DNA of 64,000 nucleotides, from the NCBI GenBank assembly GCA_021292105.1, contig CM037869.1, forward strand, positions 40,503,530 through 40,567,529. Reading direction: 5' to 3'. The first letter of the stretch is position 1. Each line of letters opens with the position of its first letter. Below are positions 3,197 through 64,000 of the stretch, piece after piece. Source of the DNA: Anadara kagoshimensis. Taxonomy: Eukaryota > Mollusca > Bivalvia > Arcoida > Arcidae. The notes below the pieces were generated by a model that saw only the letters and a list, made by a program, of their open reading frames with translations, made no database searches and was not told the origin of the DNA. Made by a program: the position numbers and the translations under genes.

Positions 3197-3755
3197 TACA
3201 GACCTGTCGAAAGTTACACAACAAACTAACGAAGTAGTGCCGGGTCGGCAGCACATCCGTTAGCAATATCAAGACAGTTTTTCAACACCCGCTGTATATC
3301 TCTCGGCAGGTTTTTCGGCGAAAAACTATCCATATCTTGGCCATTCGAGTTGAGAGTAATTGTGTTTAACGTCCCAGTCAAGAATATTTCACTTATATCG
3401 AGAAGTCGACAGCTATAGGCCAAGGTGCAGAAATTTTTTCTGTGCGTTGCGCTGATGGCATTATACAGCAGGGTTCTTTAGCGTGCCAAGCCCACCGTGA
3501 CACGGGACCTCGTTTATTTTAAGTTCCCATCCGAAAGAACCGTGATTTTCATTTCGTAATGTCGAGTGCTTGGCTAAAGAACAGTCACTACCCGCTTTCA
3601 AGTTTTAGGTCAGACCCGGCCGGGGATCGAACCCACGACCTCCCACTTACGGAGCGAGCACTCTACCGCAATGGTCTTGGCCATTCGAGGGCCGAGCTTC
3701 GACTCCTTTTCGTTAACCCTGTGTACAACTTTCGACAGATCTGTACTATACTGTA
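3197..3755. mobile_element. MITE-P copy split by a SINE-A
   Basis: Left half TACAGACCTGTCGAAAG and right half ending TTCGACAGATCTGTACTA are separated by a complete SINE-A at 3350-3675. Without the SINE and one copy of its target duplication the element is about 220 bp, the normal family length. This dates the MITE as older than the SINE. Confidence 0.85.
3350..3675 (-). mobile_element. SINE-A, complete, with 14-bp target duplication
   Basis: On the minus strand: tRNA-like head with box B GGTTCGATCCCC, a body containing GGCTTGGCACGCTAAAGAAC, and the 3' domain CTCGATATAAGTGAAATATT. Direct repeats CTTGGCCATTCGAG flank it at 3336-3349 and 3676-3689, marking a retrotransposition event into MITE-P. 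Short open frames here are repeat sequence, not genes. Confidence 0.92.
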
Positions 3756-4087: not shown

Positions 4088-4330
4088 TTGTGTGGAGTGG
4101 AGTGGAGATATGGAGTTTACATCTCGGTCAAGATTCTTTAACTTATATCCAGACTGTCAGTTCTAAGATAGTGGAGGAAACCAGAGTGCCCGGAGAAAAA
4201 CGCCAATCTGGCAAGCGAACTTACAAACTTTTCATCCGAAGATCTGTCCAGAATGGGATTCGAAACTAAGCGGTGAGAGGGATTGTGATCTTAAATTCGC
4301 TATTTAGACCAATAGGTCAACGACTCCCAA
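4088..4330 (-). mobile_element. SINE-L copy
   Basis: Read on the minus strand: a diverged tRNA-Leu-like head (about 4330-4240, box B TTTCGAATCCC), then the body words CTGGACAGATCTTCGG and TTTCTCCGGGCACTCTGG, then a decayed 3' domain ending in GGAGT/CCACTCC repeats at the left edge. Older than the SINE-A at 3350. Confidence 0.75.
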
Positions 4331-4587
4331 TTAAGTGAAAGGCTTAATGTTCAAATCAATGTCGATTCTGAAAAAAAAAATAGTTTTGAAGGTTAGACCA
4401 AAACTTGGTTTCAGAAATGCTAGTAAAGGCCCTTCAGAAGGCCCAAACACTCTGTTTCGGAAATACGATAACTTTTCTTTTAAAAGGTCTAAGCAATTGG
4501 TTTCAGAATCAAAGGAAAAGGTCTTACAGATAGCAATACCCGCATTTATTCATTTGATGCAAACCTCCTGTAGCTAGCTGGTAGTGT

Positions 4588-5547: not shown

Positions 5548-5938
5548 CTGGTGGTGTCTCGATATAAGTGAAGTTATATTGAGCTAGAACGCACTTAGTG
5601 TAATTCCGTGTTTTATAGTATGCCATTGGCGAAAAACAAAAACCAATGAAACATGTTTGAAAAATAACTGCAAAATTTCTACACCTGGTGGTGTCTCGAT
5701 ATACGTGAAGTTATATTAAACTAGAACGCACTTAGTGTAATTCCGTGTTTTATAGTATGCCATTGGCGAAAAACAAAAACCAATGAAACATGTTTGAAAA
5801 ATAACTGCAAAATTTCTACACCTGGTGGTGTCTCGATATACGTGAAGTTATATTAAACTAGAACGCACTTAGTGTAATTCCGTGTTTTATAGTATGCCAT
5901 TGACGAAAAACAAAAACCAATGAATCATGTTTGAAAAA

Positions 5939-6437
5939 TGTGTAAAACCGATCTAACCCACCTTAGCCGTATTTAAGTGGAATATCTGAAGCATTTTAAT
6001 AAGATTTCCGAAAATTGATCCCTGGACTAATCTCGGAGAAAATTACCTGGACATTCCCCAGGTAAAAAATCTAATTATATTTCCTCTATAATCACCAACA
6101 AAATTAAATATACAGGTATGAGTTTAGATTAAAAACCTGTAAAACAACACTTGTTTCCATAAAAATGTCATTACTGGTTTTTTTTGCGAGTCGTGTGAAA
6201 CATCTGTGTGTGCTAAAAAGTTAAAACAGGATCAGGTTCGAGCTCGTTTTACAGACATAGGAGATCTCGTTCCCATAGCTAATCGCAGTGACACTCATAT
6301 ATTTTCTTTTGGGTAGTTGAGAAAATTTAATCAACATAAAATTAATTAAGGGGTTGATCAATATTTTGATTACTAAGAATCGTTTAGTGGTGAGTAAGGA
6401 GAGGAGAGTTTTGAGCAGGTGCTCCTTGCAAATTTTA
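5939..6437. other. Unassigned intergenic DNA
   Basis: No gene or recognised repeat. The open frames are negligible. Confidence 0.5.
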
Positions 6438-18998: not shown

Positions 18999-19627
18999 GG
19001 TTAGAATTATCTACATCATTACATACAAATGCACTACTGTGCATAAAGACTATTTTGAACATAGAATATTGTAAATTACGTTTTAATAAAGAAGTGCTTG
19101 CAAAAATTAACACAGCGTATTTATTCATTATTCAGAGACCTAACTAAAAAGTATTTTTTTGTCAATGCTGCATGTTTTGGTTAACGCCTGTATATAGAAA
19201 AAATACATTTTTGACAGAATATGTGTATTCCAGCTAACCATTTGAGCCTCAAATTACAAATGAATGTTGGGTAAAAATTTACCTTTCACCTGCGTGATTG
19301 AGTAAAAAAAATTCACACCTGGTCGACCTACATATAACCAATAGATAATGAGGCACCTAATGGGAGTATTTATACTTAACCATTTTGATATTCTTGAAAA
19401 AATGGCAAAATTTATGGTATGTACACACTCACATAGATCAATTTAAAACAAAACATATTTTTTCCACTTAGGTCTCTCTTTTCTGTGCTGAAATATAATT
19501 AAAATTTTAACAAAAAATTAGAATTCAATATTTAACCGCAATATATCCATGTTCAAAATAGCCTTTATGCACAGTAGCGGTCTAATCAAACTCAAACGTC
19601 CCGGTCCACATTTAAATTTAAAGTAAA
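18999..19627. other. Unassigned AT-rich DNA
   Basis: Nothing recognised. TGTGCATAAAGACTATTTTGAACATAG-like text near 19037 recurs inverted near 19540-19575, forming a weak inverted repeat around 19.0-19.6 kb. Confidence 0.5.
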
Positions 19628-19967
19628 GTGAGTGAGTAATGGTGTTTAACGTCCCAGTCAAGAATATTTCACTTATATCGAGACGTCGCCAGCTGTAGGC
19701 GAAGGTGCAGAAATTTTGCCTGTGCATTGCGCTGATAGCATTATACAGCAGGGTTCTTTAGCGTGCCAAGCCAACCGTGACACGGGGCCTCGTTTATTTA
19801 GGTTCCCATCCGAAAGAACCGTGACTTTCATTTCGTAATGCCGAGTGCTTGGCGAAAGAACAGTTACTACCCACTTTTAAGTCTTGGGTCAGACCCGGCC
19901 AGGGATCGAACCCACGACCTCCCACTTACGGAGCGAGCACTTTACCAATTGAGCTACCGCAGTGGTT
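19628..19967 (-). mobile_element. SINE-A, complete
   Basis: Close to the family consensus over its full length of about 340 bp: tail GTGAGTGAGTAATGG at the left, reverse box B GGGATCGAACCC, reverse box A TTTACCAATTGAGCTACC. AAAGTAAAG occurs on both sides and may be the target duplication. Confidence 0.92.
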
Positions 19968-30500: not shown

Positions 30501-31910
30501 ATACTAGTAGTATATACTACTTCTATGTATGTATTTTGTATTTGTTTTTGTTTGTTGTCATTAATATTTATGTCACTTACAGCATGTATATAGTGTTTAC
30601 GTTATTTTGATGTAAAACCATTTATTTATAATCTCTACTGCAGAGGAACTATATAAAGAATAGAATAGATCTTCACAGACATGACCATTTGCGTTTCATG
30701 GTCCACCGTAGGTCTAATTTTTTTTACACGCTATATATCAAGGTGTACTCAAACTACCATCTCACGAACTCGGGTCTCGTGAAGCCAATCTTAAGTTGTG
30801 TACATACCACTTCAACTTCAATTATGGTGCTCATCAAAATCCAAGGTGGACATAACTGGTTTAAGACGTCTCAATATAAGTGAAACAATCAATTCCTCAC
30901 ATACCAACAACGTATATAACCGTGGTTTAATTAAATTAAATTAAATATTTTGCCTACCTTGATGTCGTCTGCTTCCATCCTCCATTATACTGATGTGACA
31001 GGTAATATCCAAAAACAATGAATTAATAATTAAGATCCATATGTGATAATCTCGTACACACATAAACACTTATTTTTTAAATAATCCCAAAACGAATTAT
31101 CCGTAAGAAAATAAATCCGCTGGTAAAATTTACCCATCATGCAATGGATATCCACCATAAAACCAATCCAAACCTGTAATAAAAAGGACAAGAATTCTAT
31201 GAAACCGGTATAAAATTGCGTTTCACAATATCTCGAGTGATATCTTCTGTAAGTAAGCACAAAAGTGTTATTATTATTTAAAGGGGGGTAATTTAAATGA
31301 ATTTTTATCTTTTGTTAAGCGTTTAAAAGAGTAAGAAGTCAATTGTCCGAGTTAGCAATATCTTATTTCGATTTTAAACAAAAATGTCTATGTTGTAAGC
31401 TTTTTAGTAATATGTATTCTATCCCCGTCTCACTTTTCCATTTTATTCAACCAGGCCCGTAAACAAATCCCATATAATTGTATCCGAAGTTTCGCAACAG
31501 TGATGTAAAAATATTCCCCTTCTTTTGTATATTATGTTAAATTTGCCTATTCTTCTCGAGCTATTATATACCTACTCTTAAGAAATATCACTCCGACATG
31601 ACAAAGAACCCTTTCAATATCTTGGATGATAAAATTCACAATTTTCTTTATACTGTTTAGAAAGTGTATAGGAATATTTAAACCCATCTATTGATAAAGC
31701 CGGATTTTTAAAAATTGTTCTAAAAATAATGTGTTAGTATTTCAATTGACCAGATTTCATCTTTTTTCCTTTAATATAATGTTAAACACTTTATTGAATC
31801 AACCCCTAGATCAATTATTGCTGGAAAATTCAATATGTCACACGTTAAATTGTCAGATATATTTACTTCATCTGTCAGACTGTTATTTTCAACTACTTTT
31901 TTAACTTAAC
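30501..31910. other. Unassigned AT-rich DNA
   Basis: Near 30640, CTGCAGAGGAACTATATAAA and GAATAGAATAG resemble a LINE 3' end but nothing supports it upstream. A SINE-tail-like GTCTCAATATAAGTGAAACA lies at 30866-30885. No gene found. Confidence 0.5.
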
Positions 31911-33460
31911 ATGGAATGAAGTAATGGAATTTTACTCCCCAGTAAAGGGTCTGAGGGAGTCAGTTCAGGGATAGTAGAGAAACCGAGTGCCTGGAGATGG
32001 AGTAATGGAAATTTATGCCCCAGTAAAGGGTCTGAGAAAGTCAGTTTGGGGAGTGTAGAGCTAACTGAGTGCCCGGAGAAAACCACCGACCTTTCACAAG
32101 CAAGCTTTCTCGCATTAGGATCCTTCATGAGTGGGGTAACGGAGTAACGGAATTTTACGCCCGAGTAAAGATTCTCACACTTTCATGTATACCGTGAAAC
32201 TCGGTTCAGGGATGGTAGAGGAAACTGAGTGCCTTGAGAAAACCACCAACTTACTACAAGCAATCTTTCTCGCACTATATAGGATCTGTCATGAGTGGAG
32301 TGGAGTAATAGGTGCTAGAGGTCTCAGTCAAGATTATTTTACTTATATCAAGGGGGTTAGTTCTGGGATGGTGGAGAAAACGAGAGTGCCCGGATAAAAC
32401 CATTTACTTACTATAATATAAGCAATTTTCCTCGAACTAGAAGCGGACATGAGTGGGACGGAGTAATAGTGTTTCAGGTTCAAGTCAAGATTATTTTACT
32501 TATATCAAGGCGGTTGGTTCTTGGATTGTGGAGGAATCCGGAGTGCCAGGAGAAAACCACCTAACTCCTATGAGACAAGAAAAAATTCTCGCACTAGGAT
32601 CTGTCATGATATGGAGTGGAGTGAAGTAATAGTGCTTTAGGTCCCAGTCACAATTATTTTACTTATACAAGGCGGTTAGTTCCGGGATGGTGGAGGAAAC
32701 TGGAGTGACTTGAGAAAACCACCAAACTCCTACTAGCAGACTTTCTCGCACTATGATCTGTTATGATTTGGGTGGCGTAATTATGTTTCAGGTTCAAGTC
32801 AAGATTTTTTTTTACTAAAATCAAGGGGGTTAGTTCTTAGAAGGTGGAGAAAACCAGAGTACTTGGAGAAAACCACCAAACTCCTATTAGACAAGAAAAA
32901 ATTCTCGCACTAGGATCTGTCATGATATGGAGTGGAGTGAAGTAATAGTGTTTAAGGTCCCAGTGAAGATTTTTTCACATATCAATGCGGTTAGTTCTGG
33001 CCAACTTCTGGGATGGTGGGGAAACTGGGGTGCCGGAAAAAACCATCTACTTCATTTCCTCGCACTAGGATCTATTTTGAGTGGAGCGATAGAGTTTTAC
33101 GGCCCACTTAAGATTCTATGACTAACGTCTATAATGAGACACTCAGTTCAGAGATGGTGAAGAAAAGTCAGTGCCCGGAGAAAACTATTGACATTCTGCT
33201 GAGAAATGGCAAACGTTCTCATACTCAAGGTTATGTCATAGGCAGAGTGGAGTGGACAGTCCCAAGTTAAGATCCTTTCACTTGCTGAAAGGATACTCTG
33301 GTAGTCACTTCAGGGATGTTGGAGGAAACCCGAGTTTCCGGTGAAAACCACCAACCTCCTAAAAGCAAACTTTCTCGCACTAGAATATACTTTAAGTGGA
33401 GTGGAGTAACACTGTTTTAGACACCAGTCAAGATTTTCCCACTTATACCAAGGCTTTAAA
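31911..33460 (-). repeat. Tandem array of SINE-L 3' parts, about eleven units
   Basis: Units begin near 31911, 31996, 32129, 32293, 32451, 32612, 32768, 32928, 33071, 33244 and 33395; most are 145-173 bp. Each contains, reversed, the SINE-L text AGATCCTAGTGCGAGAAA, GGTGGTTTTCTCCGG and the 3' domain, and ends in GAGTGGAGTGGAGTAAT. None has the tRNA-like head. Units differ by 10-25% by eye, so the array is not young. Confidence 0.9.
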
Positions 33461-33811
33461 ATGTTTTGAGTAAATGAGCATGGCAGAACATATCAACAAG
33501 GCCTTTATCTTCTCCGATTTGATTGATGATCTTCATCTAGTCAGTCATGATTAAGTCTTGAATATGGCACAAAGTACCCTTCACTACAACTACCTAAACA
33601 AAACGTTTGATTGGACATGTTCAACGAGTGAGTAATGGTGAAGTCTTCAACACCCGCATGCCACACAGTCTTCTGCACGATCAGTGACTAGACGTTTAGA
33701 GCATTGGAGATAATGATCAAGAGATATTTTTAGGGGGAAAAACTTGTGCATATCTTAAATGTTTTCTGGACCAATAATCATATCATAAAAAGATGACAAG
33801 ACCACAATAGA

Positions 33812-34052
33812 CGCCCAAGTGGCCGAGTGGTCGAAAAAGCGATCTTAGGCATCATATCGCCTCTCACCACCTGGGTTCAAATCTCACTTGGGACAGATCT
33901 TAGTGTGAAAAATATGCCAGTTCGCCTGCCGACGGTAGGTGAGAGGTTTACTCAGGGACACTCCGATTTCCTCAACCAATCTTGATCTGATGACCGATTC
34001 GATATACGCGAAACTTGAAAAATCTTGATTCTGGAATAAAACATCATTAAAA
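33812..34052 (+). mobile_element. SINE-L, complete, with target duplication
   Basis: The tRNA-Leu-like head GCCCAAGTGGCCGAGTGGTC has box B GGGTTCAAATCTC; acceptor arms GCCCAAG and CTTGGGA pair at 6 of 7 positions. The body GACAGATCTTAGTGTGAAAA and ACTCCGATTTCCTCAACCA leads to the 3' domain ending GAATAAAACATCATTAAAA. ACAATAGA flanks it at 33804-33811 and 34053-34060. This is the reference copy for the family here. Confidence 0.92.
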
Positions 34053-34060
34053 ACAATAGA

Positions 34061-34448
34061 ACATATATGTAAATATTTTACCTGTCAAAGATCCATTTCT
34101 TCAAATATTTCCCCAAAAATTAAATATTTAACAATTTTTCCAATATAGGTATATCGAATAAATTGTGACACATCATACTGACGGGCGTGTGTGTACGTGT
34201 GTATATATATACATATATGTAGATATGTACACATATAAATAAACATATAATAATAACTGTATAGATATCCTTTTAGCATTTCTTGTTAAATTAAGACTTT
34301 TGTTAGTTGGGACAGTTTATATTCCGTGGTGGAGAGAATGCTATTAGAGTCGAACAAAGCGACAAAAAGCTCTATTCGGAGTCAATTGTTGTGTTACATA
34401 AAGCGGAATTAAAGAGTCCGACAAATAGCCTATATATAAATATATATA
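34061..34448. other. Unassigned AT-rich DNA
   Basis: Alternating GTGTACGTGTGTATATATAT stretch at about 34190-34220; nothing else. Confidence 0.5.
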
Positions 34449-34670
34449 TCACAGACCTGTCGAAAGTTTAACACTAGGCTAACGAATATGAATCAAAGCT
34501 CGACTCCCGAATGACTCGAGATATGGATAGCTGGTTGACGAAAATTCAAAGCTGTCGAGAGGTAGGTAACAGCTGCCGAAAAGTCGTCGATATATAGCCC
34601 ATGAGAGACCGAAGGGGGCTGTGTTAATTTTTTTAGCTCAGTGTCAAACTTTAGACAGGGCTGTACTATC
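34449..34670. mobile_element. MITE-P copy
   Basis: ACAGACCTGTCGAAAGTTTA at the left and AACTTTAGACAGGGCTGTAC at the right; interior GAGATATGGATAGCTGG and AGCTGTCGAGAGGTAGGTAA. Confidence 0.88.
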
Positions 34671-36120: not shown

Positions 36121-37050
36121 TTGAATACCTTTTATAACATCACCGTGCAGACCTGTTCAAAGTTTGACACTGATCTAGCAAAAAAGAATCTATGCTCGTT
36201 TGCTGAGGCCCTCATGATAGCTAGAGGCCGAAAAGCTTACGAGAGATATATAGCAACTGACGAAAAGCTATCGAGGTACTGAATAGCTAACAAGGGTAAA
36301 GGATAAACTACCGTCGTTAGCTTATTGTTAAACTTACGACAGGTCTGTGTAATTTTTATTACATCACGGTTCAGACCTGTCGAAAATTTAACACTAAAGG
36401 TAACAAATCAGTGTCGAATTGACAGCACATCCCGGCCATAGTTTAGTTATATTGAGACAGATTTACGGCAGCTGCTGTCTCTTAGCTCACTAGTTATCCA
36501 TATCTTGGCTACTCATGATCAGCAGCCCAGTTTTGACTCATTTCCGTTGTGTTAAACTTTCGACAGGTCTGTATCTTTTATTATATCACGGTACAGACTT
36601 GTCGAAAATTTAACACTAAGTTAACCAATCAGTGACGAATTGACAGCACATCCCGACCCATCGTTAATTATATTGAGACAGATTTTCGGCCAGCTGTTAT
36701 CTGTCTCTTAGCTCACTATGTATCCAAATCTTGGCTACTCATGATCAGCAGCCCAGTTTTGACTCATTTTCGTTAGCTCGGTGTTAAACTTTCGACAGGT
36801 CTGTATTGTACCTTTTATAACTCAACGTTACAGGCCTGTCCAAAGTTTAACACTAAACTAACAAATGAGTGCCATATCGACAGCATACCTCGACCCATCC
36901 TTAACTTTATCTCGACAGTTTCCCGACAGATGTTGTCGATAGTTTTGTAATTTTTCGATCACTAACTGTTCATATCGATCTCGACCACTCGGCAGACGAA
37001 CTTCGACTCCTTTTCGTTAACCCAATGTTAAACTTTCGACGGGTCTGTTC
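36121..37050. repeat. Four MITE-P copies in tandem with conserved linker
   Basis: Copies at about 36144-36350, 36366-36575, 36590-36805 and 36828-37050. Before each lies a linker of the form CTTTTATAACATCACGGT or a variant. So the repeating unit is element plus linker, about 220 bp: a duplicated segment rather than four separate insertions at TA sites. Copies two and three are especially alike. Confidence 0.88.
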
Positions 37051-44986: not shown

Positions 44987-45245
44987 CCGAGTAGTCATGT
45001 CGTTACTGGATCTTTAAACCCAAGACATCTTACCAGGTCGCCAGCAATTTTGTGATGGTTTTTCTTTGCCGCAGGCCTTGGCACCATGTAAAGGACTTAG
45101 TGGTCAGTGATTTTATTAGTGGCATCGCGGGAAAAGTTCTAGAACTCTCTTAGTCACAATAAGTGTGCAAAGCACAAAGCTAACCAGAAACACTTTAACA
45201 AACTCATGTACATGGTAGATATAGGTAATTCTTTGAGTGTGATGG
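44987..45245. other. Unassigned intergenic DNA
   Basis: Nothing recognised. Confidence 0.4.
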
Positions 45246-45490
45246 ATTAGAGTAATGGTGTTTAACGCCCAGTCAAGATTTGTTCACTTGTACCGAGGCG
45301 ATCAGTTCATAAATTGTAAAAAAAAAAACGGAGTGTCTGAATAAATCCACCTAACTTCGGAGAGCGAACTGACAAACTTTTTCACACTAGGGTCTGCCCA
45401 AGTGGGATTTGAAACTAGGCATTGAGAGGCACTATGATCCAGAAGCATGCTCTGAGGGATGTACATGTAAGCAATGTCACTTCAAATGAA
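45246..45490 (-). mobile_element. SINE-L copy
   Basis: Plus text TAGAGTAATGGTGTTTAACG, CCCAGTCAAGATTTGTTCAC, then GGGTCTGCCCAAGTGGGATT and TGAAACTAGGCATTGAGAGG: reversed tail, body and head. An A-run near 45325 sits inside the body. Confidence 0.82.
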
Positions 45491-45534
45491 GACGCCACTG
45501 TAGTAGATATGGTAGTATTGAAGTATTGCATTTC

Positions 45535-45735
45535 AGTCTAGATATCGTAGTGGTCATTTCTGGGATGAAGAAGGAAACCGGAATATCAAGAGAAAACCAT
45601 CAATATCTACAAAATAAACTGACAAACTCTCTTACACTAGGATCTGTCCCGAGTGGGATTCGAATCTAGGCAGCTTAAGACACTTTGGTACATAAGCGGT
45701 GGCTTTATACCACTTGGTCACCAAGGACATTTTGG
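45535..45735 (-). mobile_element. SINE-L copy with good head
   Basis: On the minus strand TTGGTGACCAAGTGGTATAA and box B GATTCGAATCCCACTCGGGA form a tRNA-Leu-like head, then the body CAGATCCTAGTGTAAGAGAG and GTTTTCTCTTGATATTCCGG. The 3' domain is cut short. Confidence 0.82.
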
Positions 45736-45817
45736 TTATTGCAGAAGTTTTTAATGGAGTCAGACACTTGACTATACATATCCTACAGGTTATTCTACCA
45801 TCACTGGCAACTTCATC

Positions 45818-46885
45818 ACTCCCCTCCACTCCACCATCCTCTAACCGATTGTCTCGATATAAGTGAAATAATCTTGACTAGGGCCTAAAACTCCATTACT
45901 CCACTCTATTCCACCATCCTTGAAATTGCTGTCTTGATATTAGTGAAAGTATATTGACTAGGGCGTAAATCTACATTACTCCACTCCACCATCATCCCAG
46001 AACTGACTGTCTTGATATAAGTTAAAAAAATCTTGACTGGGGCGTAAAACTCCATCATTCTACTCCACTGCAATACCTTCGATCTGACGGCTTCGATGTA
46101 TACGAAGGTGAAAAAAATCTTGACTGTTGCATAAAACTTCAATACTCAACTCCACAATCCCTAAACCAAAAGCCTCGATATAAGTGAAATAATCTTGAGT
46201 GGGGCGTAAAAATCTATAACTCGACTCTTCTCCACTCCACCCCACCATGACAACTGACTGAATTGATGTAAGTGAAATATTCTACACTGGAGCCTAAAAC
46301 CCTATTACACTACCCCATTTCGTCATGCCTGAAATAACTGCTTCGATATAAGTGAAAAAATCTTGACTGGTGGGTAAAATCCCAATACTCCACTCCACTC
46401 CACCATCCATGAACTGAATACCTCGCTTTAAGAGAGAAAAATTTGACTAGGGCGTAAAACTCCACTATCCCTGAACTAACTGTCTCGGTATAAATAAATG
46501 AATCTTGACTGTGTCGTAAGACCCCAATACTCCACTCCACCATCCCTAAACTGACTGCCTCGATATAACTGAACGAAACTGGACTGTGATGTAAAAATTC
46601 ATCACTACACCCTTATTCCTGAACTTACTGTCTTGATATAAGTGGAAGAATCTTGACTGGGGCGTAAAGCTTCATCCCTGAACTAACTCTTGATATACTA
46701 TGTAAGTAAAATAATATTTTCTGGGCTGTAAATTTCCAATACTCCACTCCACTCCAATAACCCTGGATATCTTATGACTGGGGCATCAAACCCCATTACT
46801 CGACTCCACCATCCTTGAACTACCTGTCTCGATATAAGTAAAATCTTGACTGTGCTGTAAAACTCCGAGGCAAAACTCCACTGAC
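45818..46885 (+). repeat. Tandem array of SINE-L tail domains, 13-14 units
   Basis: Unit of about 75-85 bp: CTCCACTCCACCATCCCTGA, ACTGACTGCCTCGATATAAG, TGAAAGAATCTTGACTGGGG, CGTAAAACTCCATTA. Units lie head to tail from 45818 to 46885. No tRNA-like head and no SINE body. Minus-strand frames here are repeat translations. Confidence 0.92.
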
Positions 46886-48065
46886 TTTACTCTACGTTTA
46901 TTTTATAGCCAGTGATCCCCGAATACGTGTATTTAAACATAAAAATAAAAAATTAAATAAACAAACTTACCTTAAACGTGTGACAGTGTAGTCCTAAGTT
47001 CGGTATGTAAATGAATGAAATAAATATACATGTACTTATGTACATATATATATATATACTTATGTATCACAAAATATCAAATAATCCTTACGAAACACTC
47101 GTTACAACAGCAATCACTAATACAACATCCAACCTGAATCGAACGCAGCCAGTCAGCTAAAGAATCTATAGACTGGTTATAGTGTATTTATATCCAATCC
47201 GAACGTGTCTAGCTAGTTCGATGCTGAAAACTAAATGCCAGGCGATTGTATTAAAATTCTAAGGAGCACAATAATAGCTGGTGTTTCTGTAAAACTATTG
47301 TTTACTGTTTTCAATACACAAAACACCAGCTTGATTACAACAAAAATATTAACCTCCGCCATGACATCAAAACAAACGGCGATTGTTTCCAACTGGGTTT
47401 TAATTTCTTTTCCTACATACAAGTTTTTCATTTCTTTTATAAGCGCCTATTTACAATTTGTATTGAACATAGAGAACGCCTAAGTAAGCCTATTGAAGTT
47501 GTACATTATGGTATAGGATATTCGCGGAGCTGTTTTTGTGATTAGGAATAGGTTTTATGAAACATAAAAGCCGACCGATTGTTAGTGTTACAATAACGCA
47601 AAACCCATTATAAGTCAAAATCATTCCGAGTATTACAATCTTTATCAAATTCTGCATAATAAAAGTTTAAAAAGAGAAGTATTATTCGGCCTAATCGATG
47701 TAAGTTTCTGGCATGCCTTGCATTCAAATCAGGCGAAGCGTCATGTCGCTTGTTTGTTTCCAAATAATTTAAAGAAATAACTTCAAAGACGTTTTTATTC
47801 ATGTGATTAGCCGTTTTTATTTAGACTACAATAGCAAAATATTGCTAAAGTTTTTCCTCTATGCTTAAATAGAAAAGATATTGTTCAATTTCAATAGTAT
47901 ACTTTTAAATATTTCAATGGGTACATTAAATTTGTTAACATATAATTTAAATACTTGATTTTAAAATCTTTTATTCACCCATAGACCGATACAAGTTGAA
48001 TGTCACGCGCATACGTTTGAAAGGAACATATCGTAATGAAATTGATTCGCTACGAATGATTTATC
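46886..48065. other. Unassigned AT-rich DNA
   Basis: 82-, 66- and 64-codon frames overlap on both strands without recognisable motifs. TATATATATATA near 47046. No element identified. Confidence 0.5.
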
Positions 48066-48282
48066 GTACATCCCTGTCGAAAGTTTAACATCGAGTTGAC
48101 TAAAAATTCGGCTGCCAAGAGGCCGAGATAAGGATAGCTTATATCAAAAAAGCTGTAGGGAAATATATGACAGCTGCTGTCAAAAAGCTGTAGAGATTTA
48201 GCTAAAAAGGGGCCCAGATGAGCCGCCGATTCGGCACTTACTCATCAGTTCAGTGTTAAACTTTAGACAGGTCTACACTGTA
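48066..48282. mobile_element. MITE-P copy
   Basis: TA, CATCCCTGTCGAAAGTTTAA at the left; AACTTTAGACAGGTCTACAC at the right, then TGTA. Interior GAGATAAGGATAGCTTATAT. Confidence 0.85.
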
Positions 48283-48423
48283 CTTTGTGTAATTTGTATT
48301 ATAAAAGGCAAATATCGCTGAACTGTTACTTCGATGAATGAAAGCCATTCAGTGTTCAAATTTAATATTCATGACGACATGAATTAAAATAAAAATGTTA
48401 CAACATTAAGTATGTGAAAAATT

Positions 48424-49090
48424 AAGTCAAAATTCTTCCACTTATATCGAGTCGGCCATGCTGCAATGGTTGGGTAAAGTGGAGTAATGTCAATGTCAAG
48501 ATTATATTTATTATTATCTAGGCGGCCAGTCTTTTGATGGTGGAGTGGGATGCAGAATTGATGTTTTACCCCCCCCCCCCCACACACACACACACACCCT
48601 AGGGATTTGTTCACTGAAACCGAGGCGATATCTAGGCGGTCAGTTTTGCGATGGTAGGGTAATATTGGAGTAATGCTGCATAACGCTCTAGTCAACATTA
48701 ATTCACTTTACCTAGTTGGCCTTTTCTGGAGTGGTGGGGTGGAGTGGAGAAATGGTGTTTTGCGCCTAAAATTAAAATTCTTTGACTTATATCTAGTCAG
48801 TCAGTTCTGCAGTGATAGGGTGAAGTGGCGAAAAGCGGAGAAATGGTGTTTTGCGCCCTAATAAAGTTTCTTTCACTTGTATCTCGACGGACAGTTCTAG
48901 TATGATAGAAGGAAGAAATGATGTTTTGCGCCCTTATAAAGTTTCTCTCACTTGTATTGGCGGACAGTTCTGGTATGATGGAAGGGAAAAATGGTGTTTT
49001 ACGCCACAGTTAAGATTTTATGGTAGGGTGGTCGTGAAATGAAGTGCATTGAGTAATGGTGTTTTATCCCGACTCAAGATCCTTTCACTG
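48424..49090 (-). repeat. Tandem array of SINE-L tail domains, about eight units
   Basis: On the plus strand each unit reads as the reversed tail: GAGAAATGGTGTTTTGCGCC, AAAGTTTCTTTCACTTGTAT, then a GG(A/T)CAGTTCTGGTATGATGG-like join. Unit about 80-100 bp. A C-run and (CA)n at 48570-48598 interrupt one unit. Confidence 0.88.
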
Positions 49091-49157
49091 ACATATGGGT
49101 GAACACTGAAAGAATTATAGATTTTGGACGCTTATTGAAAAAATCCTTGACTTTGGT

Positions 49158-49446
49158 TGATTGATTGAATAGTGTCATGTCTCAGTCAAGAATATTCCAT
49201 TTATATCGAGATGAATCAGCAATAGGTGAAGTAGCTGTAATTATTTGCAGGGCATTGCGCCCAGGGCAATGTGCAGGGAGGATTAATTAAGAAGGACGAA
49301 GGACGAGTAACTTTCATTTCTAAATGCCGAGTGCTCGACGAAAGAACAAGTCATAACATATTATCAAGTCTCGGTCAGACCTCGGCCGAGGTTCGAATCC
49401 TTGACTTCCCACATAGGAAGTGAACACTCTAGCAACTAAACTGAGG
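49158..49446 (-). mobile_element. SINE-A, left arm of head-to-head pair
   Basis: Plus text CTCAGTCAAGAATATTCCAT (reversed tail) through GGTCAGACCTCGGCCGAGGT (reversed head). Abuts the next copy at the head. Confidence 0.88.
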
Positions 49447-49723
49447 TTGTGGGTTCGGTCCAGTGTAACTTGAAAGACTGATTTTTCACTAAGCACTTGG
49501 AATAACGAAATAAAAGTCATGGTTATGTCGGATTTGAACTGAAATTTAACGAGGTCCCCTATCAATGAGACCTGCACGATAAAGAACCCTGCTGTATAAT
49601 TCCATCAGCGCGACGCACAGGCAAAATGTCTATACCGTCGCCTATAACTGGCGACGTCTCGATATAAGTCAATATTCTTGACTGGGACGTTGAACAGCAT
49701 TTTATTCAACTCTAGATCTTGCA
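49447..49723 (+). mobile_element. SINE-A, right arm of head-to-head pair
   Basis: Starts at GTTGTGGGTTCGGTCCAG (part of box B), so box A is missing; continues through AAGAACCCTGCTGTATAATT to the tail CTTGACTGGGACGTTGAACA. Mirrors the copy to its left with almost no spacer. Confidence 0.88.
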
Positions 49724-52023: not shown

Positions 52024-53903
52024 GTTTGACTATTAAACAAGCATTAAAGTACACAAATCATAGTCAGCAAGTAAAAAATAAGTGAGTGAGTGAGAAAGTA
52101 AGTGATTGAGTGTTTGAGTAAGAAAGTAAGTGATTGAGTGTTTGAGTAAGAAAGGAAGTGAGTGAGTGTTTGAGTAAGAAAGTAAGTGAGTGAGTGAGTA
52201 TTTTTGACTATTAAACAAACATTAAAGTACATAAGTGAGTGAGTGAATGAGTGAGAAGGTAAGTGAGTGAGTAAGTAAGCGAGTGTTTGAGTAAGAAAGT
52301 GAGTGAGTGAGTAAGTAAGTGAGTAAGAAAGTAAGTAAGTGAGTGAGTAAGAAAGTAAGTGAGTGAGTGAGTAAGTAAGTGAGTGTTTGAGTAAGAAAGT
52401 GAGTGAGTGATTGAGCGAGTGTTTGAGTAAGAAAGTAAGTGAGTGAGTAAGTAAGTGAGTTAGTAAGAAAGTAAGTAAGTGAGTGAGTAAGAAAGTAAGT
52501 AAGTAAGTGAGTGAGTAAGTACATGTTAGTAAGTAAGTAAATAAGTAAGTAAGTAGGTAAGTTAATAAGTAGTTGAGTAAGTTAGTAAGTCTAGTTAGGA
52601 AGTAAGCAAATAAGTGAATCTGTAAGTAATGTAGTAAGTAAAAAGTGAGTAACAAAGTGAGTACGCCCGTCCAAAATTAAGTAAGTATGAACGTGTACGC
52701 AATTAAGTGTCTTAAGTCAATATTTAATACGTATAAATAACCAAATTAATAGTTAAGTAAGTAAGCAAGTGCACAAGTTGATAACTGAGTATGTAAATAT
52801 ATATAAGTGAGTAAGTAAGTGAGTGAGTGAGTAAGTCAGAAAGTGAGTGAGTAAGTAAGTAAATAAACAAGTGAGTGATAAGTAAGTAAGCAAGCAAGCG
52901 AGTAGGTAAGTGAGTAAATAAGTAAGTAAGTAAGTTAGTGAGTAAATAAGTAAGTAAGTAAGTGAGTGAGTAAATAAGTAAGTAAGTGAGTGAGTAAGCA
53001 AGTGAGTAAATAAGCAAGTACGTAAGTGAGTGAGAAATTAAGGAAGCAAGTAAGTAAGTACACGAGAAAGTAAGAAAGCTAGTGAATAAGTAAGTGAGCA
53101 AGTAAGTAAGTGAGTGAGTAAGTAACTAAGTGAGAAGATAAATAAGTAAGCATGTAAGTGAGTAAATAAAGAGGCAAGTTAGTGAGAAAGTAGGGAAGCA
53201 AGTGAGTAAGGTGAGAAAGTAAGTGAGTAGATAGGTAAAACTAAGTAAGTAAGTAATGAGTAAGAAAGTAAGTAAGTGATTAAATAAGTAAGTGAGTAAT
53301 TTAGTAAGTAAGTGAGTGATTTAGTAAGTAAGTGAGTGATTAAGTAAGTGAGTGATTTAGTAAGTAAGTGAGTGAATGATTAAGTAAGTAAGTGAGTGAT
53401 TAAGTGAGTAAGTGAGTGATTAAGTAAGTGAGTGATTTAGTAAGTAAGTGAGTGATTAAGTAAGTAAGATAGTGATTAAGTAAGTGAGTGATTAAGTAAG
53501 TAAGTGAGTATTAAGTAAGTAAGTGAGTGAGTGATTAAGTAAGTAAGTGAGTGATTAAGTAAGTAAGTGAGTGAGTGATTAAGTAAGTAAGTAAGTGAGT
53601 GAGTGATTAAGTGAGTGATTAAGTAAGTAAGTGAGTGATTAAGTAAGTAAGCAAGTGAGTAGGCCCGTCAAAAATAAGTACGTACATAAGTATATACACT
53701 AGTAAGTGACTAAGTTGATAAAATATAAGTAACAAATTAAATAGTTTAGTAAGTAAGCAAGTACACAAGTTAATAGCTGAGTAGGTAAATAAATAAATAT
53801 AAGTAAGTAGGTAAGTGAGTAAGTAAGTAGGTAAGTAAGAAAGTAAGTGAGTGTTTAATTAAGTAAGTAAGAAAGTAAGTAGGTAAGTAAGTAAGTAAGT
53901 AGT
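52024..53903 (+). repeat. GTAA/GTGA tetranucleotide array with 1-kb higher-order repeat
   Basis: Almost 1.9 kb of GTAAGTAA, GTGAGTGA and mixtures. A non-simple segment of about 150 bp (GCCCGTC, then CAAGT(G/A)CACAAGTT and AGCTGAGTA-like text) occurs at about 52665-52810 and 53663-53815, giving a period near 1 kb. At the left edge TTTGACTATTAAACAA, ATTAAAGTACA is duplicated (52024 and 52203). The long minus-strand frames (203, 125, 100 codons) are Leu-Thr/Ser-rich translations of the repeat, not proteins. Confidence 0.95.
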
Positions 53904-55388: not shown

Positions 55389-55984
55389 CCAGTAGAGACC
55401 TATCGAAAGTTTTTAAAAGCTTGCTAAGCTAACGGGAAAGAGTCAAAGATCGCGATCGGGTGCTGCGTGGCTGATATAGATGGGTACCTAGTGACACAAG
55501 AGACCCCAACTGATAGCTAGCAGCTGCCGAAATTTGTCGAGATATAGAGTTGAGTTGAGTAATGGTGTTTAACGTCACAGTCAAGAATATTTCACTTATA
55601 TTCAGATGTCGCCAGCTATAGGCGAAGGTACAGAAATTTTGACTGTGCGTTGCGCTGATGGCAATATAAAGCAAGGTTCTTTAGCGTGCCAAGCCCACCG
55701 TGACACGGGACCTCGTTTATTTTAAGTCACCATCCGAAAGAACCGTGACTTTCATTTCGTAATGCCGAGTGCTTGGCGAAAGAACAGTCACTTCCCATTT
55801 TTAAGTCTTAATCAGACCCGGCCAGGGTTCGAAACCACGACCTTCCACTTACGGAGCGAGCAATCTATCAACTGAGCTTTTGCAGTGGTCTGTCGAGATA
55901 TAGATAAAGAGGAGCTGAGATGAGCTGCCGATTCGGTACTGATTCATCAGCTTTGTGTAAAACGTTTGACAGGTCTGTGCTGTA
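55389..55984. mobile_element. MITE-P copy split by a SINE-A
   Basis: Left half CAGTAGAGACCTATCGAAAG; right half ending ACGTTTGACAGGTCTGTGCT, GTA. A SINE-A at 55549-55890 sits in the middle. Confidence 0.85.
55549..55890 (-). mobile_element. SINE-A, complete, with 14-bp target duplication
   Basis: Tail GTTGAGTTGAGTAATGG at the left, reversed head CTATCAACTGAGCTTTTGCA at the right. TGTCGAGATATAGA is duplicated at 55535-55548 and 55891-55904. This target is a MITE-P interior word. Confidence 0.93.
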
Positions 55985-59946: not shown

Positions 59947-60585
59947 TTGGTAGAGTTGGTAGAGTGCTTGCTCCGTATGTGGGAGGTCGTGATTCGACCT
60001 TGACAGGGCCTGGTCAAGACTTGAAAATAGATAGTGACTGTTCTTTCGCCATGAACTCGGCATTTAGGAATGAAAGTCACGGGCTCTGCAGAGGAGACCT
60101 TAAAACCGATGCCTTCTGTCACGGTAGTTCCCTCATTGCATTCAGTTGGTAGAGTGCTCGCTCCGTAAGTTGGAGGTTGTGGGTTCGAACCCCGGCCGGG
60201 TCTGACTTAAGACTTGAAAGTGGGTAGTGACTGTTTTTTCGCCAAGCACTTGGCATTACGAAATGAAAGTCACGGTTCTTTCGGATGGGAACTTAAAATA
60301 AACGAGGTCCCGTGTCACCATGGGCTTGGCACGCTAAAGAACCCTGCTGTATAATGCCATCAGCGCAACGCACAGGCACAATTTCTGCACCTTCGCCTAT
60401 AGCTAGCGATGTCTCGATATAAGTGAAATATTCTTGACTGGGACGTTAAACACCATTACTCACTCACTCTCCCTCATTGCACATTGTCCTGAACGTACTA
60501 CAAAGTTTTAATATCTACCTCTTCACTTACAGGTGGTGACTTCTCGATATAAGTGAAATATTCTTGACTGGGAAGTAAGGATATG
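59947..60585 (+). mobile_element. Older SINE-A split by a younger SINE-A
   Basis: Head TTGGTAGAGTTGGTAGAGTG and body through ACCGATGCCTTCTGTCACGG before 60129; tail TCGATATAAGTGAAATATTC, TTGACTGGGAAG after 60481. The interruption at 60141-60469 is another SINE-A. Confidence 0.9.
60141..60469 (+). mobile_element. SINE-A, best-preserved copy, with 12-bp target duplication
   Basis: TTCAGTTGGTAGAGTGCTCG (box A), GGTTCGAACCCCGGCCGGG (box B), full body, tail CTTGACTGGGACGTTAAACA and CCATTACTCACTCACTC. TCCCTCATTGCA flanks it at 60129-60140 and 60470-60481. Slightly short at the 5' end relative to 19628-19967. Appears to be among the youngest copies here. Confidence 0.95.
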
Positions 60586-63070: not shown

Positions 63071-63570
63071 TATTTATACACTATCGATGCAAAAAAGTAG
63101 TTTGTGTGAAGTATGCATCAATTACATATTGTTAATACAATCCATATTTAGATGATGCACGCGATATTGTCATTCATACCTTTCGATGAATTCTTAATAA
63201 GAATTCAAACACGCGTGTATGCTTCCGACATTATAATGAGTCCCTATTCATACGCCTTCCGCTCAAGCGTAATTACGCATATGGTTATGAACCCGTCTTT
63301 GTTACTGTAACAATTTGATTCTAAAACACAAAAAGGTAATAGATACAAAAGAATGACCCGATTCAAATTTTACGTTTATAGTAATAAAGGAATACAATAG
63401 GTAATTGGAGTGTAATTAATTCAACTGCAATTCTGAGTACTTTGAGATCAATACGAAAACATTTTAATAACCGCCAGAAATAAGGTTCAGTTCTATCGCG
63501 CATGCTCCGTCCGTCATTGGTCTCTAAAAGATACGTGAGATATTAGTACAGTGGCATCGGTTGCTGACAA
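63071..63570. other. Unassigned AT-rich DNA
   Basis: Nothing recognised. Confidence 0.5.
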
Positions 63571-64000
63571 ATTGTCTTTTCATTTTTTTCGGCTCGTCGG
63601 TGACACATGGTCTAACGCATGCGCTTACTGATCAAAGTGTTTCTCAACCCCCAGGTTTGAATCCATCTCGGGCAGATCCTTCTATCTTAAATGTCTACAT
63701 TTTAGCGTGTACTAATTTTAGCGCAAAAAAGTACACCGCTAATTGTCTTTTTACTTTTTTTCGGGTCGTCGGTGGACACATGGTCTATCGCATGCGCTTA
63801 CTGATCAAAGTGCTTCTCATCGTCTAGGGTTTGAATCCATCTCGGGCAGATCCTTCTATTTTAAATGTCTACATTTTAGCGTGTACTAATTTTAGCGCTA
63901 AAAAGTACACCGCTAATTGTCTTTTTACTTTTTTTTCGGGTCGTCGGTGGACACATGGTCTATCGCATGCGCTTACTGATCAAAGTGCTTCTCATCGCCC
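63571..64000 (+). repeat. Tandem array of tRNA-Leu-like (SINE-L head) units, running off the window
   Basis: Units start ATTGTCTTTT at 63571, 63742 and 63915 (171-173 bp). Each has TCGTCGGTGGACACATGGTC, TATCGCATGCGCTTACTGAT, CAAAGTGCTTCTCATCG and box B-like GGTTTGAATCCATC, then TCGGGCAGATCCTTCTAT, which matches the SINE-L head-to-body junction, then about 75 bp of non-SINE AT-rich sequence. The 3' domain is absent. Acceptor arms do not pair well, so these are not tRNA genes. Confidence 0.82.

Follow-up and report, generated by a model that had tools for sequence, protein, structure and literature searches.

The array and its surroundings

The window analysed here, a 64-kb stretch of DNA (35% G+C, no N), is rich in repeats and gave 57 TRF rows. 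It contains nine stop-to-stop ORFs of at least 110 aa; judged by eye, no gene-like long open frame is among them, and none of the nine lies in the repeat array at 31911..33460. This array (array A) is a headless, SINE-derived tandem array of ~1.5 kb, whose head-to-tail units are read on the minus strand in the sense of the SINE, opposite to the SINE copy at 33812-34052 (plus). TRF, segmentation and a profile search all identified it, confirming the headless head-to-tail SINE array that a sequence-only reading had described at this position. The tandem-repeat search proposed there for 31.9-33.5 kb returned periods of 157 (32280-32998), 316 (32293-32997) and 81 (31912-32079).

We cut array A into units on the minus strand at the joint between the tail and ACAGATCC. 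Four of the 13 automatic anchors were false, and the pieces concerned were merged by eye. Segmentation gave nine units of 129-164 bp, one of ~88 bp and a 63-bp partial piece. The earlier estimate was about eleven units of 145-173 bp; its sizes were approximate.

The nine units U1-U9 (31999..33392, minus strand; segmentation and profile) each comprise body, core, 3' domain and tail. They are U1 33392-33237 (156 bp), U2 33236-33078 (159 bp), U3 33077-32923 (155 bp), U4 32922-32764 (159 bp), U5 32763-32607 (157 bp), U6 32606-32449 (158 bp), U7 32448-32292 (157 bp), U8 32291-32128 (164 bp) and U9 32127-31999 (129 bp), part of the 3' domain being deleted in U9. Beyond U9 lies the short unit (31911..31998, minus strand, ~88 bp), which starts at the core, is seen in the TRF period of 81 and has a second type of joint, at a CTCC site; its border was placed by eye. 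The 5' edge of the array is the 63-bp partial piece (33393..33455, minus strand), consisting of SINE 3' domain and tail only.

Two further headless arrays lie in the window. Array B (45818..46882, plus strand; TRF and profile) contains just the 3'-terminal ~75-80 bp of the SINE, with 14 profile matches and a TRF period of 80 over 45809-46464. The units start at CTCCACCATCC, an internal SINE sequence, instead of at ACAGATCC, which makes a third joint type. Array C (48424..49212, minus strand; TRF and profile) is more decayed and holds a similar 3' piece, with 10 weaker profile matches and a TRF period of 75 over 48837-49005; where readable, its units resemble those of array B. Both arrays start further inside the SINE than array A and contain mainly its last 75-90 bp. 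The expectation that other headless arrays would have the same unit boundary fails within the window, since B and C hold this shorter 3' piece: across the arrays of the window headlessness recurs and the unit boundary does not. Minus-strand SINE copies at 45.3 and 45.6 kb, array B (plus) and array C (minus) together form a local cluster of the family at 45200-49250.

The converse of array A is found at 63570..64000 (plus strand; TRF and head profile), where a tandem array that runs off the window carries a stretch resembling the SINE head. It has a period of 174, 2.5 copies and 93% matches, and scores 26.3, 25.0 and 16.5 bits with the head profile; no body, core or 3' domain match was found in it. 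Other repeats of the window include 226-bp tandem units with inverted TGTTAAACTTTCGACAGGTCTGTA motifs at 36326-36904, part of which recurs at 34450-34480 and which perhaps represent a DNA transposon, and a ~1.8 kb tetranucleotide-like tract (GTAA/AGTG types) at 52081-53901.

Relation of the units to dispersed SINEs

The units of array A correspond to the body, core and 3' domain of a tRNA-type SINE with dispersed copies in the window. One of these, with a tRNA-like head, lies at 33812..34052 (plus strand; BLASTN and head profile) and is abutted at both ends by a perfect 8-bp target site duplication (33804..33811 on the left and 34053..34060 on the right, plus strand). Another copy with a head, at 4090..4344 (minus strand), is the top match of the array profile and the only one among eight dispersed copies with a clear (ACTCC)n tail. 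The core of this SINE may resemble the V-type SINE core.

BLASTN of the SINE 33812-34052 against array A found short stretches only, the best of 34 nt (E 0.001), and taken by itself this comparison would have resembled a refutation. The homology shows clearly through the other copies and a profile, not through 33812-34052 alone. We built a profile from the nine array units only and ran it on the window with array A masked, obtaining 49 matches at E 10 or better. The scores included 82.6 (4.1 kb), 74.0 (45.3 kb), 65.8 (23.0 kb), 51.4 (22.5 kb), 47.4 (39.0 kb), 44.2 (45.6 kb), 42.6 (11.3 kb) and 41.2 bits (33.9 kb), and in most dispersed copies the match began close to ACAGATCC and ended close to the tail. 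Dinucleotide shuffling, repeated 30 times, left 28 runs with no match at E 10 or better and two with matches of 12.5 and 4.8 bits. The homology of the units to this SINE, as the sequence-only reading had supposed, is borne out by the array-only profile, with 82.6 bits against 12.5 in the best shuffle.

When the parts of the unit were searched separately, the 3' domain matched many places, while body and core had two matches each outside the array (E 0.01). Because body and core are short and diverged, they match little on their own, and the homology of the full unit rests on the parts combined. A 137-bp tandem repeat at 5548-5939 (2.9 copies, 98%) has units holding GTCTCGATATACGTGAAG, which resembles a fragment of the SINE 3' domain; the likeness is weak, at 6.4 bits at most.

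Exact patterns of the core and of the 3' domain each gave zero hits in viral contigs, and a shorter exact 3' domain pattern gave zero in prokaryote genome contigs. Since the sequences searched were viral and prokaryotic and only exact matches counted, these zeros say little. The core pattern and the shorter 3' domain pattern each occur once in the window and the longer one not at all. A text search of the literature with the core motif, a by-eye consensus that is absent letter for letter from the window, found a single paper, which was unrelated.

A profile of the head, built from five dispersed copies, gave nine matches in the window: its five source copies, the copy at 22.4 kb (17.5 bits) and three at the 63.6-kb array. 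There was no match in 31911-33460, nor in arrays B and C. The dispersed copies at 11.3 and 23.0 kb, two of the eight, likewise had no head match. In all, the head region can be aligned in five copies and was detected in one more; its tRNA likeness was judged by eye. Rfam gave no match at the gathering threshold, and the assignment to tRNA-Leu made earlier was not confirmed, ARAGORN finding no tRNA gene in the window.

A second, longer SINE family of tRNA type is present at 3340-3670, 19620-19945, 49475-49720, 55530-55870 and 60151-60475. Its copies at 3.4, 19.7, 55.6 and 60.4 kb are 80-83% identical to the 49.6-kb copy. By eye, its head and body look different from those of the first family, and the last 55-60 nt are common to both; this common 3' end reads CTCGATATAAGTGAAA..TTGACTGGG..AACACCATTACTC. 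Different SINEs with one 3' end are the usual sign of a single partner LINE.

The common 3' end bears on the direction of descent. Homology alone gives no direction, and a satellite might have come first, its monomer being acquired by the SINE family as a body. The 3' domain of the array is, however, also the 3' end of the second SINE family, as expected of a 3' end that comes from a partner LINE, which argues for SINE first and array second and fits a SINE origin of array A. Arrays B and C, moreover, consist mainly of the 3' piece, and units end as the SINE does. We find it hardly credible that the satellite was the older of the two.

Joints, divergence and origin of the array

All nine joints listed in array A lead from the tail to the body at one point, most of them readable as tail-ACAGATCC. 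None of the nine units has a flanking repeat of at least 5 bp within 3 nt of its ends, and no repeat of at least 7 bp was found in a scan of the edges of the whole array. The prediction that individual units would have neither tRNA-like heads nor target duplications around them held in the head profile and in all nine units. The duplication test also covered four of the eight dispersed copies: those at 4.1 and 39.0 kb had no repeat of at least 7 bp at their flanks, the 45.3-kb copy has an 8-bp repeat nearby that does not abut it, and an abutting repeat is present in 33812-34052 only. Since duplications are invisible for other SINE copies too, little weight attaches to not finding them in old units; the constant joint speaks more strongly against separate insertions.

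Separate insertions would arise if 5'-truncated SINEs had inserted serially into one another's tails. Retroelements may insert into the tails of other elements, which counts for such a course of events, as does the fact that 5' truncation yields headless pieces. Serial insertion predicts, though, that truncation points vary, whereas the joint is constant in the nine listed, and it predicts duplications between units, which were seen in none of the nine, though old ones could have decayed. We consider it very unlikely, even with the position of the edge units in the tree described below, among the dispersed SINEs, taken in its favour.

Pairwise identity among the units of array A is 56-85%, and the units are probably old, as the sequence-only reading had judged from their differences. 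The highest values belong to units two apart: U3 and U5, like U4 and U6, are 85% identical, in agreement with the TRF period of 316 bp, which is a two-unit repeat. Between lag 1 and lag 6, mean identity drops from 72.9% to 65.5%. Neighbours at lag 1 resemble each other more closely than they do when the order is shuffled (p 0.034); at lag 2 there is no significant excess over shuffled orders (p 0.066).

We also computed a tree of the nine units and eight dispersed copies. The labels array and dispersed change twice on it, fewer times than in any of 500 shuffles, for which the mean was 6.0. The tree groups U4 with U6 (99/98), U3-U7 (90/90) and U8 with U9 (91/94); one of the 14 inner branches (U4+U6) passed the support mark of the tree program. 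Array A is not one clade, a single label change occurring in only 4% of bootstrap trees, and the placement of the edge units U1, U2, U8 and U9 is unresolved among the SINEs. Tree and identities fit a homogenised middle with old edges; a separate origin of the edges is possible.

We propose that a tandem duplication joined the 3' end of the SINE to its own interior, at the point where the tRNA-like head ends. Because this join lies behind the head, the duplicated piece would have been headless. One such duplication may have seeded array A, which would then have grown by unequal exchange in steps of one and two monomers, the middle units becoming partly homogenised while the edge units would have remained diverged. 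In our judgement array A is quite probably a short, satellite-like tandem array derived from a SINE, an assessment that leaves aside the role of the tail discussed below and for which all evidence comes from the one 64-kb window. The earlier interpretation was largely right, and we read array A as an old, partly homogenised array derived from a SINE. In its phrase of a SINE module becoming a satellite, 'satellite' is a generous word for ~1.5 kb, satellite DNA in the strict sense forming long arrays in heterochromatin.

A larger mobile element may also carry a short array as its tandem-repeat core, as Helentrons of the Pacific oyster do, and according to PMC7492417 short dispersed arrays from such elements are known in this bivalve. 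For array A we searched the flanks 31301-31911 and 33461-33812, which have no match elsewhere in the window. Six inverted-repeat pairs were found in 31000-34400, of which two loosely bracket the array and look like chance: they are 21 nt at 76% and 17 nt at 82%, with arms 2.4 and 3.1 kb apart. Judged from one window, which cannot show a dispersed element, a larger carrier appears highly improbable.

Returning to tandem duplication of a SINE 3' end, what may have set the joints? Three joint types occur in the window: the tail leads to the head end, to the core (the short unit, 31998) or to CTCCACC (array B). In the SINE consensus, matches of 5, 5 and 6 nt to the ACTCC repeat lie no more than 8 nt from these three points. 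Among 204 cyclic five-base motifs, only ACTCC does so well near all three inner breakpoints; the joints in this test were chosen after being seen, and ~20% of consensus positions have an ACTCC match of at least 5 nt nearby. At the first joint, a 6-nt match (CCACTC) stops 3 nt short of the body. At the second joint proper only CTCC (4 nt) is in common by eye, the 5-nt score coming from adjoining sequence.

These matches would fit a mechanism in which pairing between the (ACTCC)n tail and internal CTCC-like sites of the SINE seeded the duplications, the least certain step of our proposal. The tail would then act, at three points of the SINE, as a recombination handle turning SINEs into satellites, and the arrays would hold the 3' end, not the head, with few fixed starts. 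Downstream of the 3' domain, the ACTCC run extends at its longest to 16 nt in the 4.1-kb copy and to no more than 5 nt in the seven other dispersed copies, and runs of at least 8 nt are found in one of eight dispersed copies against six of ten array pieces. Since such runs are commoner in the array than in the dispersed copies, the repeat may have expanded within the array itself. Because only one of eight dispersed copies shows a clear (ACTCC)n tail, we downgraded the role of the tail, and we now put it forward tentatively, as a rather unlikely mechanism. In the literature, searched by titles and abstract openings, we found no link of a SINE tail repeat to the joints of derived satellites. 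If the tail does act in this way, the part of a SINE that becomes a satellite would be predictable from its tail; if joints do track that repeat, the onset of satellite formation could be tested genome-wide.

Array A is most likely a by-product, and we propose no function for it. Its units, lacking the head, also lack the expected Pol III promoter.

Comparison with known SINE-derived satellites

Array A is not new in kind: cases from a limpet and from squamates are already in print. As described in PMC11121367, PcH-sat of Patella caerulea (PP554448-PP554449) has a 179-bp monomer, 118 bp of which match the 3' part of the Nin-SINE of Lottia gigantea, and is without boxes A and B. It makes up ~10% of the genome by dot blot, is pericentromeric, and its monomers are 91.6-99.8% identical. 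Going by this description, PcH-sat is like array A in being a repeat made from the headless 3' piece of a tRNA-type SINE. The two differ in extent and homogeneity, with ~10% of the genome and 91.6-99.8% identity in the limpet against ~1.5 kb and 56-85% here.

The squamate sSats, as presented in PMC10702118, are many tandem arrays made from SINE parts, with several unit variants per SINE family. Close in plan to array A, by that account, are sSat3Gja1, a larger central and 3' terminal part of ~130 nt, and the sSat3Ati variants, which hold the end of the head, the body and the LINE-derived region. Dimer steps and limited homogeneity are described there as well. Like sSats, array A has head-to-tail units, and these correspond to part of a SINE family dispersed in the same genome; with nine units and the short one it also exceeds the at least four repeat units of satellite 'nuclei' in the same study. 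The sSats described differ from array A in coming from other SINE families and other hosts. The major ones have a longer terminal unit that reaches the SINE terminus and minor variants are without it, so that this unit, on the evidence given in PMC10702118, is common and not obligatory. Array A is without one: its 5' edge starts inside the 3' domain, and its 3' edge ends like every unit. The word 'microhomology' is absent from the main text of PMC10702118.

The satellite-like arrays of the Pacific oyster, which according to PMC7492417 are carried by a non-autonomous DNA element, the Helentron, are short and satellite-like, as array A is. As they are described, they differ in having DNA-element flanks, of which none were seen around array A. 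A review (PMC9659126) lists further SINE-derived cases, with salamanders, Xenopus and mouse among the hosts.

To these array A adds a local example, analysed in detail, of satellite-like arrays that can be traced to one part of a SINE: three arrays from one SINE family lie in one 64-kb window and differ in unit length and stage of decay.
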